Made by a program: the position numbers and the translations under genes. DNA of 64,000 nucleotides, from contig NZ_CP102292.1 of NCBI RefSeq assembly GCF_025152405.1, positions 2,542,001 to 2,606,000 on the forward strand. Reading direction: 5' to 3'. How positions within the stretch are numbered: position 1 is the stretch's first letter; every line of letters starts with the position of its first letter. Below, piece by piece: positions 21,905-44,592 of the stretch. Below the pieces are notes generated by a model. It was not told where the DNA came from. It did no database searches and saw nothing but the letters and a program-made list of their open reading frames with translations. This DNA comes from [Ruminococcus] lactaris ATCC 29176 (GTDB taxonomy: Bacteria; Bacillota; Clostridia; Lachnospirales; Lachnospiraceae).

Positions 21905-21914
21905 CTTTATTTAT

Positions 21915-22108
21915 GATGCCAGGGTCAAAAGGTCTAAGCCCACATGAGCTTGCTCATAGGTGGATGAAAGACCTTAGGACCCGCCTCGATATGAGCATAA
22001 AAGTGGGGCGTAAGCACCATGATATGCGAATAGCGGGTAGGATTGTGGGAGTGCGTAGCATGAAACAATCCGTAGGCATCAAAGTCGGGGGCTTTTGACC
22101 CCGACATC
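21915..22108 (+). repeat. structured dispersed element, copy A (full, 194 bp)
   Basis: Begins GATGCCAGGGTCAAAAG and ends in hairpin GTCGGGG / CCCCGAC plus ATC; the two ends are imperfect inverted repeats. Inside are stems AAGGTCT / AGACCTT around ATGAGC-TT-GCTCAT, GTGG-GC / GC-CCAT, GGATTGT / ACAATCC with inner GTGC / GCAT. Exact 7-bp direct repeats TATTTAT flank it (21908-21914 and 22109-22115). Same length as copy C at 44399. It sits in the 3' untranslated region of asnS. Non-coding; a 61-codon open frame inside is not conserved in the other copies. Confidence 0.85.
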
Positions 22109-22141
22109 TATTTATTTATAAGCTCAAAAGGATCCATTCTA

Positions 22142-32373: not shown

Positions 32374-35313
32374 TTATCTATTGTACTTTTTCTTCTTATT
32401 TATAACCATTGAGCCGCCACTGACAACCAGCAGAGCCATCCACAAAGCAAGATTTGCTGTATCGCTGGTCTTCGGACTCCTGGCAGACGTTCCAGCCTTG
32501 GTGCTGCTATTCGTTGTTGTATTTGGCTTTGTATTTCCCGGCTTGGTATTTCCTGGCTTTGTATTGCCCGGCTTCGTATCACCCGGTTTTGTATCTCCAG
32601 GTTTTGTATCTCCGTTGTTATCTTTAGCTTTTTCCCAAACAGCTACATAAGTAACATCTCCTGTTACTTTTTCAGCAACAGCCGGCTTCCAGCCTTTGAA
32701 GACATATCCTTCTCTTGTCGGTGTTCCCTTGAAAGCAGGTGTATCGACTCCCGACAAAAGATTTCCGTATACCTGATCTGCAAAGATTACTTCTTCATCC
32801 ACTCCGTCCGTATATCTGACGGTGTATTTGGTCTCCTCATCGTCTGCGATACCATTATTATTTTTATCTTCTCCCCACGTTGCTACATAGGTAACATCTC
32901 CTGTTACTTTTTCAGCAACAGCCGGCTTCCAGCCTTTGAAGACATATCCTTCTCTTGTCGGTGTTCCCTCAAATGCAGGTGTAGCCACTCCTGACAGAAG
33001 ATTTCCGTATACCTGATCCGCAAAGACTTCTCCGTCTACTCCGTCCGTATACGTAACCGTATATTTCGTTTCTTCGTTGTCGTCAATGCCGTTATTATTT
33101 TTATCTTCTCCCCACGTTGCTGCATAGGTCGCATCTCCTGTTACTTTTTCAGCAACAGCCGGCTCCCAGCCTTTGAAGACATATTCTTCTCTTGTCGGTG
33201 TTCCCTCAAATGCAGGTGTAGCCACTCCTGACAGAAGATTTCCGTATACCTGATCCGCAAAGACTTCTCCGTCTACTCCGTCTGTATACGTAACCGTATA
33301 TTTCGTTTCTTCGTTGTCATCAATGCCATTATTATTTTTATCTTTTCCCCACGTTGCTACATAGGTAACATCTCCTGTTACTTTTTCAGCAACAGACGGA
33401 TTCCAGTCTTTGAAGACATATCCTTCTCTTTTTGGTGTGCCCTTGAATGCAGGTGTATCGACTCCCGACAAAAGATTTCCGTATACCTGATCTGCAAAGA
33501 TTACTCCATCATTCACTCCGTCCGTATATCTGACGGTGTATTTGGTCTCCTCATCGTCTGCGATACCATTATTATTTTTATCTTCTCCCCATCTTGCTAC
33601 ATAGATCGCATTTCCTGTTACTGTTGCAGCAACAGCCGGATTCCAGCCTTTGAAGACATAGCCTGTTCTTGTCGGCGTTCCCTCAAATGCAGGTGTAGCC
33701 ACTCCTGACAGAAGATTTCCGTATACCTGATCTGCAAAGACTTCTTCTCCGTCTACTCCGTCTGTATACGTAACCGTATATTTCGTTTCTTCGTTGTCGT
33801 CAATGCCGTTATTATTTTTATCTTCTCCCCACGTTGCTACATAGGTCACATTTCCTGTTACTGTTGTGGCAACTTCCGGATTCCAGCCTTTGAAGACATA
33901 TCCTTCTCTTGTCGGCGTTCCCTCAAATGCAGGTGTAGCCACTCCTGACAGAAGATTTCCGTATACCTGATCCGCAAAGACTTCTTTTCCGTCTACTCCG
34001 TCCGTATATCTGACGGTGTATTTGGTCTCCTCATCGTCTGCGATACCATTATTATTTTTATCTTCTCCCCATCTTGCTACATAGGTCGCATTTCCTGTTA
34101 CTGTTGCAGCAACAGCCGGATTCCAGCCTTTGAAGACATATCCTTCTCTTGTCGGTGTTCCCTTGAAAGCAGGTGTATCGACTCCCGGCAAAAGATTTCC
34201 GTATACCTGATCTGCAAAGACTTCTTCTCCGTCTACTCCGTCTGTATACGTAACCGTATATTTCGTTTCTTCGTTATCGTCAATGCCATTATTATTTTTA
34301 TCTTCTCCCCACGTTGCTACATAGGTCGCATTTCCTGTTACTGTTGCAGCAACAGCCGGATTCCAGCCTTTAAATACATAACCTGTTCTTGTCGGTGTTC
34401 CGCCACTGAATGCCGGGGTAGCCACTCCTGACAGAAGATTTCCATGTACATCATCTGCGAAGACTTCTCCGTCTACTCCGTCCTTATACGTAACCGTATA
34501 TTTCGTTTCTTCGTTGTCGTCAATGCCATTATTATTTTTATCTTCTCCCCACGTTGCTACATAGGTCGCATTTCCTGTTACTGTTGCGGCGACTTCCGGA
34601 TTCCAGCCTTTGAAGACATAGCCTGTTCTTGTCGGTGTTCCGCCACTGAATGCCGGGGTAGCCACTCCTGACGAAAGATTTTCGTGTACATCATCTGCGA
34701 AGACTTCTTCGTCCTCAACTCCATCTGTGTAAGTAACAGTATAAGTAGTACTTTCATCCACGGTCTGAGTGATAGTAAAATGCAGAGTACGCCCCCCCCA
34801 ATTACTGGTATAGTTCCAGCCTATGGACGAATTTAATCTACTGAACTGATAGGCCAGATCAATATCAAACGTAGCTGTTCCGTTCGTCACACCATCGGTT
34901 GTCACCACCGTCTGATAACATTTATACGTTCCCGGCCAGCCCGAAAGCGTGCTTGATCCTTCACTACCTTCAATCCCCTCAAGGATATTGTTGGGATCGT
35001 TAATATTGCAAACGTAATATTTATAGGCTGAAGGAATGATCTGATAGGTATTATTGCCATACTGCCACTGGATAAGTGGTAACACCGTATGCGTCAACCT
35101 GGTTTTACTTTCTGTTGCACTACCGTTGACATTAACTTCACCGTAGTAAAGATTATCAGCACACGTTGGTTCCTCATACACTCTGTCAACTGTTACCTTG
35201 CCACTAACATCAATATTTGCTGCCAATGCAGTTGTTGGAAACATGGAAATTATCATACACAACAACACGAACAGCGAAAGGAATTGCTTTTTCATCTTCT
35301 TCATCTTCTTCAT
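32374..35313 (-). CDS. InlB-repeat cell-wall surface protein
   Basis: 979 residues from the ATG at 35313, which follows GGAGG by 7 nt (an earlier ATG lies inside that ribosome site region). Signal peptide: KKQFLSLFVLLCMIISMF up to TALAA. A unique N-terminal domain (about 35-195) precedes nine tandem units of about 79-81 residues, each an InlB/Listeria-Bacteroides-type beta repeat (KYTVTYTDGV ... GYVFKGW) ending in a calcium-loop-like DKNNNGIDDNEE. A KPG(D/N)T spacer repeated six times, then a sorting signal SPKTSD, a helix and KKKKYNR follow. It is therefore anchored by sortase, although the motif has Ser where Gly is usual. Probable adhesin or matrix protein. Confidence 0.88.
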   Translation of the reverse strand: MKKMKKMKKQFLSLFVLLCMIISMFPTTALAANIDVSGKVTVDRVYEEPTCADNLYYGEVNVNGSATESKTRLTHTVLPLIQWQYGNNTYQIIPSAYKYYVCNINDPNNILEGIEGSEGSSTLSGWPGTYKCYQTVVTTDGVTNGTATFDIDLAYQFSRLNSSIGWNYTSNWGGRTLHFTITQTVDESTTYTVTYTDGVEDEEVFADDVHENLSSGVATPAFSGGTPTRTGYVFKGWNPEVAATVTGNATYVATWGEDKNNNGIDDNEETKYTVTYKDGVDGEVFADDVHGNLLSGVATPAFSGGTPTRTGYVFKGWNPAVAATVTGNATYVATWGEDKNNNGIDDNEETKYTVTYTDGVDGEEVFADQVYGNLLPGVDTPAFKGTPTREGYVFKGWNPAVAATVTGNATYVARWGEDKNNNGIADDEETKYTVRYTDGVDGKEVFADQVYGNLLSGVATPAFEGTPTREGYVFKGWNPEVATTVTGNVTYVATWGEDKNNNGIDDNEETKYTVTYTDGVDGEEVFADQVYGNLLSGVATPAFEGTPTRTGYVFKGWNPAVAATVTGNAIYVARWGEDKNNNGIADDEETKYTVRYTDGVNDGVIFADQVYGNLLSGVDTPAFKGTPKREGYVFKDWNPSVAEKVTGDVTYVATWGKDKNNNGIDDNEETKYTVTYTDGVDGEVFADQVYGNLLSGVATPAFEGTPTREEYVFKGWEPAVAEKVTGDATYAATWGEDKNNNGIDDNEETKYTVTYTDGVDGEVFADQVYGNLLSGVATPAFEGTPTREGYVFKGWKPAVAEKVTGDVTYVATWGEDKNNNGIADDEETKYTVRYTDGVDEEVIFADQVYGNLLSGVDTPAFKGTPTREGYVFKGWKPAVAEKVTGDVTYVAVWEKAKDNNGDTKPGDTKPGDTKPGNTKPGNTKPGNTKPNTTTNSSTKAGTSARSPKTSDTANLALWMALLVVSGGSMVINKKKKYNR
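32637..34745. repeat. nine tandem ~240-bp coding repeats
   Basis: Nine units of about 237-243 bp in the surface protein gene, many over 85 percent alike by eye; some neighbouring units share long identical stretches. Copy number can change by recombination. Variation is concentrated at GEV/EEV/VIF and the N/K/E-P-A/E-V site. Confidence 0.9.
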
Positions 35314-36854: not shown

Positions 36855-36889
36855 GATATCGGGGTCAAACCCCCCCGACTTTGATGCCT
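36855..36889 (-). repeat. structured dispersed element, fragment E (3' hairpin only)
   Basis: On the minus strand: AGGCATCAAAGTCGGGG..., hairpin with loop TTTGA-like, CCCCGATATC. It matches the last about 35 nt of copies A-D. On the plus strand it lies just after a TATAAT (36844-36849) and before the GT2 gene, so it would fold in the 5' leader of that mRNA. Confidence 0.7.
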
Positions 36890-41568: not shown

Positions 41569-41627
41569 GATGTCGGGGGCAAAAGCCCCCGACTTTGATG
41601 CCTACGGATTGCTCCGTGCTACGCACA
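41569..41627 (-). repeat. structured dispersed element, fragment D (5'-truncated)
   Basis: Minus strand GTGCGTAGCACGGAGCAATC, CGTAGGCATCAAAG and hairpin GTCGGGGGC / GCCCCCGAC plus ATC: the last about 60 nt of copy C with a fully paired end hairpin. A 10-bp direct repeat TTATAAAATT lies on both sides (41557-41566 and 41631-41640). It is just upstream of the M18 peptidase gene. Confidence 0.8.
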
Positions 41628-42950: not shown

Positions 42951-42960
42951 TCCTATTTCA

Positions 42961-43095
42961 GATACCAGGGTCACAATATGAGCATAAAAGTGGGGCGTAA
43001 GCACCACGATATGTGAATCTTGGGTAGGATTGTGGGAGCACGTAGTGCGTAACAATCCGTAGGTATCATAGTCGGGGGCTTTTGACCCCGACATC
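42961..43095 (+). repeat. structured dispersed element, copy B (135 bp, lacks the 5' domain)
   Basis: Keeps the start GATACCAGGGTCA and the whole 3' two-thirds of copy A but lacks 59 bp that hold exactly the 5' hairpin domain. Flanked by exact direct repeats TATTTCA (42954-42960 and 43096-43102). Its last base touches the stop codon of the next minus-strand gene. Helix GCAC / GTGC here corresponds to GTGC / GCAC in copy C. Confidence 0.85.
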
Positions 43096-43904
43096 TATTT
43101 CAGAGATGCCGCACTATCATCTGTTGCAGATGAGGGTACGGCATTTTCTTTTATACCCGCATTTTTTCCTGCCTCTGTGCGAACCGGTGTATAAACTGCA
43201 TTGATCTCCAGCGTATCCTCCGTATGTGCCATCCACAAGGTGTAATCTCTGATACTCTTTTTTGTATACTGTTCCTGAACACAATACAGTTCCATCGTCT
43301 CAAAATCTATCAGTACCAGGTCGACAGGCTCCGGTTCTTTTCCCTCCTCACATTTTACCTCCATCGCTTCAGACAGCTTTTCCAGACAGGACTGACACAA
43401 AATCTGCGATGCCTTTTCCATGGAAAGTACTCTGTCCTCTCCATAATCTACTACGATTTCCGAAATACCCCGGAGACTTTCTGAACTACGCTCCAGAACT
43501 CTTCCATTTTTCCCAACCGTTGTCCTTGTCGTATTCTTTCCTTCTGTATCTTCCGGCATATTTCCTTTCTCATTTCCACTTTTGATCTTCAGATCCATAA
43601 TGTACCAGTCATTCACACTGATGATACCAATCGCATCTTTTCCGCTGAACATCCCCGTCATACTTTCTTTTCTGCTGCCGCACAAAGCACATTCTTCCTG
43701 ATCTGTCAGCTTTGTCTCAGGCACTTTGGGCTTTTGGAATGACCAGTCTGCTTCTCTCTTTGCAGAAACATCTTCTTTCTCTGATGCATTTGACCAGAAC
43801 TGTATATATGCCCACCACAAAACACATACTATCACTGCGATCCCTCCCAGGATCAGCCATACCGTTCTTTTCTTCATACTACGATCATTCATGGATTTTT
43901 TCAT
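43095..43904 (-). CDS. membrane-anchored protein with two CxxC pairs, unknown
   Basis: 269 residues: basic start, one membrane helix (TVWLILGGIAVIVCVLWWAYI), then an extracellular domain. Two cysteine pairs, CALCGSRK (about 72) and CQSCLEKL (about 170), could bind zinc or form disulfides. The segments AIGIISVNDWYIMDLKI and PVDLVLIDFETMELYCVQEQ suggest a compact alpha/beta domain. The C terminus (AVPSSATDDSAASLK) is low-complexity and its stop overlaps the end of repeat B. No named family recognised. Divergent from the XRE gene at 44042. Confidence 0.65.
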   Translation of the reverse strand: MKKSMNDRSMKKRTVWLILGGIAVIVCVLWWAYIQFWSNASEKEDVSAKREADWSFQKPKVPETKLTDQEECALCGSRKESMTGMFSGKDAIGIISVNDWYIMDLKIKSGNEKGNMPEDTEGKNTTRTTVGKNGRVLERSSESLRGISEIVVDYGEDRVLSMEKASQILCQSCLEKLSEAMEVKCEEGKEPEPVDLVLIDFETMELYCVQEQYTKKSIRDYTLWMAHTEDTLEINAVYTPVRTEAGKNAGIKENAVPSSATDDSAASLK

Positions 43905-44041
43905 TTTTCTTCATTATCTACCTCTCTTTATCCGGGTGCGTTGCACTCCTTATTTGTGGCGGTTTCGTTCATGGTCAGTGTGTGGAACTATCCTTATTTA
44001 TGAATTATCATAAAAGATATATCAGGAGGAGGAGCAAAAGA

Positions 44042-44377
44042 ATGGACTTACTTAATAGTAAAAGCATAGGAAGAACACTGAAAGAGCGTAGACTCCAACT
44101 GGGTTATACTCAGGAACTCGCCGCCGAGAAATCAGGAATCTCTTACTCCTACTATACCAAAATTGAACGAGGAGAACAACTTCCTTCTATAGAAATTTGT
44201 GTTCAGCTTGCACAGACCTTTCATCTCTCGCTGGATTACTGGCTGCTTGGTACATCTTCTGATGCGGAAATATCCTCTGAATTGATCGATCTTGCTTATT
44301 CTCTCAGGGAGATTGACCTGAATTCTTTAAGAAAAGTAGAGAAGCTTCTGCAAAAAGCAGAATTGCTTACAAAATAA
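44042..44377 (+). CDS. XRE-family transcriptional regulator
   Basis: 111 residues from the ATG at 44042, behind a strong AGGAGGAGG; an open frame upstream to 43712 is without homology-like composition and is not used. N-terminal helix-turn-helix: SIGRTLKERRLQLGYTQELA, AEKSGISYSYYTKIERGEQL. The C-terminal helix ELIDLAYSLREIDLNSLRKV with a leucine pattern suggests dimerisation. Divergent from the anchored protein; target unknown. Confidence 0.88.
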   Translation: MDLLNSKSIGRTLKERRLQLGYTQELAAEKSGISYSYYTKIERGEQLPSIEICVQLAQTFHLSLDYWLLGTSSDAEISSELIDLAYSLREIDLNSLRKVEKLLQKAELLTK

Positions 44378-44398
44378 TTTTTCTTTGCATTATTTTAT

Positions 44399-44592
44399 GA
44401 TGCCAGGGTCAAAAGGTCTAAGCCCACATGAGCTTGCTCATAGGTAGGTGAAAGACCTTAGGACCCGCCCCGATATGAGCATAAAAGTGGGATGATAATC
44501 CCACGATATGCGAATATTGGGTAGGATTGTAGGAGTGCGTAGCACGGAGCAATCCGTAGGCATCAAAGTCGGGGGCTTTTGACCCCGACATC
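44399..44592 (+). repeat. structured dispersed element, copy C (full, 194 bp)
   Basis: Same 194-bp length as copy A, about 88 percent identical by eye. Hairpin GTGGGAT-gata-ATCCCAC is fully paired here. Inner stem GTGC / GCAC. No target duplication is visible at its ends (ATTTTAT left, ATAAGAT right). It follows the XRE gene and precedes a cut-off dehydrogenase gene. Confidence 0.85.

Follow-up and report, generated by a model that had tools for sequence, protein, structure and literature searches.

The repeat that occurs in three copies in the 64,000-nucleotide stretch of the [Ruminococcus] lactaris ATCC 29176 genome analyzed here (referred to below as the window) is a miniature non-autonomous transposon (MITE) whose body is the structured RNA family RF01699. 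We favor the explanation, to which we assign a probability of roughly 0.85, that this MITE is moved in trans by an IS1182-related transposase and that its fold is kept at the level of the family, as that of a probable transcribed RNA. An orphan Rfam family would thereby gain a concrete identity, as mobile DNA with ends matching an identifiable transposase group.

The element and its copies in the window

Copies A, B and C all match RF01699 (Clostridiales-1 in Rfam), with covariance-model scores of 136.5, 76 and 149.1 bits, respectively, each above the gathering cut-off of 48 bits. Weinberg et al. (2010, PMC2864571) classed Clostridiales-1 among probable RNAs and not as cis-regulatory. RF01699 is an orphan structured RNA family of unexplained function, and in the literature searched we found no mention of its mobility.

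Copies A (21915-22108, plus strand; Rfam match at 21914-22081) and C (44399-44592, plus strand; Rfam match at 44398-44565) are full-length elements of 194 bp, and copy B (42961-43095, plus strand) is a 135-bp element without the 5' arm. Reading of the sequence places copy A between target-site duplications TATTTAT (21908-21914 and 22109-22115) and copy B between duplications TATTTCA (42954-42960 and 43096-43102); the flanks of copy C, ATTTTAT and ATAAGAT, form no exact duplication. The left terminal inverted repeat of copy C, GATGCCAGGGTCAAAAG (44399-44415, plus strand), contributes its first 6 nt as the 5' side of helix P1, and the right one, GATGTCGGGGTCAAAAG (44576-44592, minus strand), lies inside a 3' tail hairpin. 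The part of copy C that makes up the RNA fold, closing helix P1 and three arms, occupies 44399-44565 (plus strand) and corresponds to the Rfam model, which has the same fold as the window copies yet stops short of the 3' tail with the right inverted repeat. Two truncated copies are found on the minus strand, one holding only the 3' end (41569-41626; genome 2583569-2583626) and the other the last 35 nt (36855-36889; genome 2578855-2578889). Separately, positions 32550-34763 contain a unit of 237-240 nt, in multiples of three, nine times in tandem; these are probably repeats in a large protein gene.

Anatomy of a mini-transposon

In the 2.73-Mb genome, about 109 places in the stretches examined match the element, and 71 of these are full-length at approximately 194 bp; congeners have 0-11 copies, versus the roughly 70 full-length copies here. 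The copies end in GATGCCAGGGTCAAAAG and its imperfect inverted repeat GATGTCGGGGTCAAAAG, as expected for the terminal inverted repeats of a MITE. Exact duplications of 7-8 bp, the constant length expected of MITE insertion, flank 62 of the 92 copies with both ends, against about 1.5 with shuffled flanks. No direct repeat of at least 3 bp lies beside the ends of 27 of the 92, some being one base off, and some copies without direct repeats may be rearranged. Paralogous empty sites point the same way: several filled copies of another dispersed repeat read TTTACTA-element-TTTACTA, and in seven empty copies of that host repeat a single heptamer (exactly TTTACTA in five of the seven) is read straight through. 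This host repeat (..GATATTGTATTTACTATTTGACTAATCATT..) has been a target of repeated insertion at the same heptamer (505568, 845525, 1239404, 1414033, 1525676 and others in genome coordinates; empty copies at 884138, 1048042 and 1221256). None of the 71 full-length copies is inside an ORF.

Shortened derivatives have also spread. Six 113-nt copies share one internal junction, several 75-nt copies consist of the 5' arm only and copies of 73-81 nt consist of the last arm plus tail only; they lie at separate sites, duplications flank many of them, and the 113-nt and 75-nt derivatives are fold-less. Because these deletion forms spread, with duplications, the fold is dispensable for movement.

Full-length copies are oriented head-on to replication in a ratio of 58:13 (p 6e-8; dnaA at 1.1 kb) and are mostly antisense to neighboring genes. 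The head-on bias is also seen where the neighboring genes are divergent or convergent (25:5) and is therefore not a matter of gene orientation only. Target-site composition as the sole cause would give 1.2:1 and was rejected.

Candidate mobilizing elements

Three types of terminal repeat match the ends of three IS in related species, all with IS1182-like DDE transposases. In another species of the genus (locus L153), a 978-bp IS with inverted repeats matching at 16/17 positions and the duplication ATGCCAT has a right end identical over 19 nt to the MITE right end; this IS is truncated and holds a transposase fragment with DDE_Tnp_1_6. In genome G008, MITE ends GATGTGAGTGTCAAAAGT match at 17/18 positions the ends GATGTGGGTGTCAAAAGT of an IS whose transposase belongs to the same group. 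In the third type of MITE (loci L254 and L266), the right end reads GAGTTGCCCGACAAATGGGCA or a close version of it; at L266 it matches at 21/21 nt the ends of an IS of 1.85 kb (L160) that has a 535-aa frame and the 7-bp duplication ATATAAT. The sharing of ends between MITE and IS is thus seen in relatives, for three end types. The transposases in these relatives pass the Pfam cut-offs for DUF772 and DDE_Tnp_1_6. Against the IS1182 model (NCBIfam NF033551) they score 139.8 and 107.2 bits, below its cut-off of 270, and they are therefore placed on a side branch of IS1182.

A profile search found no DDE_Tnp_1_6 (PF13751) transposase in the window's own genome; the element is therefore an orphan there, and its probable mobilizer is represented by the IS of relatives. 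We considered single inverted-repeat matches at 615.8, 623.8, 640.5 and 2329.9 kb of this genome as possible autonomous IS and rejected them, as only host genes lie beside them; the same was the case at 142.5 and 259.2 kb. The plasmids searched gave no match, and the 'phage' matches, which are short unannotated contigs from human feces, are no evidence of phage carriage. In genome G036, five contigs (C20, C33, C50, C57 and C62) stop about 127 bp inside an element that starts GATGCTAGGGTCAAAAGCCC, which points to an IS whose several copies were collapsed during assembly.

In the explanation that we favor, the element, a 194-bp non-autonomous DNA transposon with an RF01699 body, would be recognized at its terminal inverted repeats by a DDE transposase of an IS1182-related IS supplied in trans, and would be inserted into AT-rich intergenic sites with duplication of 7 bp. 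The in-trans step is backed by the anatomy of the copies and by the IS of relatives, from which transposition itself is inferred.

The fold and its covariation

The structure predicted for copy C (-97 kcal/mol, z -11) is consistent with that in Rfam: P1 pairs the first and near-last bases and encloses three arms, and the 3' tail hairpin lies beyond the Rfam model. It had originally been predicted that compensatory changes among the window copies mark selection on structure, and the changes named are present. In the inner helix, copy B has GCAC (43038-43041)-GTA-GTGC (43045-43048), some 4-8 nt lower than first placed, and copy C has GTGC (44535-44538)-GTA-GCAC (44542-44545), such that the second and third pairs change on both sides, from C-G to U-A and from A-U to G-C. 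In the second hairpin, which is GTGGGAT-GATA-ATCCCAC in copy C and GTGGGGC-GTAA-GCACCA(T/C) in copies A and B, the loop-closing pair is U-A in C versus C-G in A and B, as claimed; the pair next to it also differs on both sides (A-U versus G-C), and a G.A mismatch that had gone unrecorded occurs in A and B where C has G-C. Within the window's genome, such two-sided differences are subfamily-diagnostic: among 65 unique copies, pair 94-101 is G-C in 32 and A-T in 32, and pair 95-100 is C-G in 32 and T-A in 32. Since the base changes mark subfamilies, the three window copies alone represent few events and are thin evidence.

The wider family tells much more. With 14 close copies as input, a covariance model recovered 81 matches, which lie in named genomes of Lachnospiraceae and their allies. 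Muricomes intestini DSM 29489 and Eubacterium ramulus ATCC 29099 are examples of cultured carriers. These loci were fetched by an exact motif in one helix, so the conservation of that helix is not evidence; helices other than this one are unaffected by the fetch bias. In the alignment of the 81 homologues, which was fitted to the model, 93.7% of cells are paired, versus 32-40% with slid structures, and changes on both sides occur at 52 of 58 pairs. Double-change cells number 966 versus 258 in shuffles, and covariation is 0.438 versus 0.119. The fold is thus overwhelmingly supported across the wide alignment, far beyond chance. These results also carry a warning, in that a family with covariation and many copies can turn out to be a transposon.

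Strand and level of selection

Across the wide alignment, and across genera, G.U pairs exceed A.C pairs 93:24, and the excess is significant separately in copies with 3' tails (29:6) and in copies without them (64:18). From this excess it follows that the plus strand, single-stranded, is the selected folding strand. Mutation bias is ruled out as its source, because, in the tree of copies from the window's genome, changes at paired sites on terminal branches show strand symmetry (C>T 33, G>A 31). On these branches, G.U and A.C number 33 and 22, which differs from 93:24 (Fisher p 0.01), and the rate of change is similar for paired (108/132) and unpaired (65/62) sites. On internal branches, where counts are small, there are 13 double changes, with 9 to G.U and 2 to A.C. 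Since copy-private mutations occur without structural constraint, selection acts on the propagating family and not on each copy. Our reading is that the plus strand is selected as a single strand in the propagating lineage and that individual insertions drift. The wide-alignment covariation and the G.U excess uphold the claim of selection on structure in the original prediction.

This leaves the puzzle of a mini-transposon that keeps a strand-specific RNA fold not required for its movement. An unlikely alternative is that the element is an ordinary MITE whose fold lacks any RNA function and is a by-product of its inverted repeats, through template switching or correction of palindromes at the cruciform level. 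The ends and arms are indeed palindromic, both strands fold stably, individual copies drift without structural constraint and fold-less derivatives spread. However, symmetric DNA processes predict equal numbers of G.U and A.C, not the 93:24 observed across genera; the copy-private mutations are symmetric, unlike the G.U excess; and the same fold, with freely changing helix sequences, is present in a class of copies lacking both tail and inverted repeats. A second alternative, by our estimate as improbable as the first, is that a family of free-standing small RNA genes has been amplified in genomes and acquired its terminal repeats and duplications secondarily. Its publication as a probable RNA (PMC2864571), the sense orientation of the tail-less class relative to flanking genes (18:3 in tandem gene pairs) and possible sigma-70-like boxes, spotted by eye ahead of L145 and L177, would fit this account, but nearly all full copies in the window's genome have MITE ends, most with duplications, the copies do not evolve like individually selected genes, and their orientation is head-on to replication and, for the most part, antisense to neighboring genes.

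The original prediction had also raised two possibilities: that the element may be transcribed and act as an RNA, which is plausible, or that it needs folded single strands to move, which our results do not support. A transposon of the IS200/IS605 or REP kind would account for the hairpins and for the marked preference for the head-on orientation to replication (58 copies, with 13 in the other direction). The 7-bp duplications, the inverted terminal repeats and the matching DDE IS contradict it, as does the dispensability of the folded arms; forms without the conserved fold carry duplications and the signatures are of the DDE type. We consider such a transposon very improbable. Under the explanation that we favor, a MITE carrying a probable RNA, the fold of P1 and three arms, conserved on the plus strand and unneeded for movement, would be upheld in the family as it propagates, with constraint relaxed in single copies, most likely because the body is a transcribed RNA with a role of its own.

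A tail-less class and a possible RNA role

By inspection, we assigned the members of the family to two classes. One class has a tail of 20-32 nt together with inverted repeats and duplications. In the other, that of the tail-less copies, the element stops at P1, the sequence of which is free, and tandem arrangement is common. Among tail-less copies duplications were found at 0/31, and inverted repeats are absent too, so the MITE description fits only part of RF01699. In tandem gene pairs the tail-less copies are in sense orientation 18:3, frequently a few bases past the upstream stop codon, and the class keeps the same fold while its helix sequences change freely. Among distant homologues, L144, L145, L146 and L177 (genome G057) and L147 (G052) consist of whole units in tandem; L177 additionally repeats its third arm by itself (GATTGCGGGAG..CGGAGCAATC), an instance of modular growth. 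Possible -10/-35 boxes, picked out by eye, lie directly upstream of the tail-less L145 (TTGTCA-17 nt-TAAAAT), L177 and L181.

We infer that the RNA proper is the tail-less form, which follows stop codons directly and in the sense direction; this form is probably also the parental one, mobilized more than once by IS1182-type ends, of which three different terminal repeats are seen. Its role would most likely be that of a 3'-UTR or intercistronic RNA module, a suggestion that we make tentatively. With slightly less reserve, at a little under even odds, we propose that, in Lachnospiraceae and relatives, RF01699 may be an RNA module that is transcribed and functional and that has been repeatedly captured between different IS1182-type ends; the left inverted repeat would then serve as both transposase site and closing helix, and the module would spread as mobile DNA with its fold kept by selection on the RNA.

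Comparison with known systems

IS1182-type IS and their MITEs likewise combine DUF772 and DDE_Tnp_1_6 domains, 7-bp AT-rich duplications and matching ends; the difference here is that no such transposase is present in the window's own genome. To our knowledge, IS200/IS605 elements make no target-site duplications, whereas the present element has them. ERIC, BOX and RUP are short, palindromic, intergenic, high-copy structured repeats, some of them modular, and an IS acting in trans is the presumed mobilizer of RUP. The element resembles them in being short, palindromic, intergenic and high-copy, a likeness drawn from their general description. By the same description, it is distinct from ERIC, BOX and RUP in its strand-specific four-helix fold, which it has in common with the tail-less tandem class.
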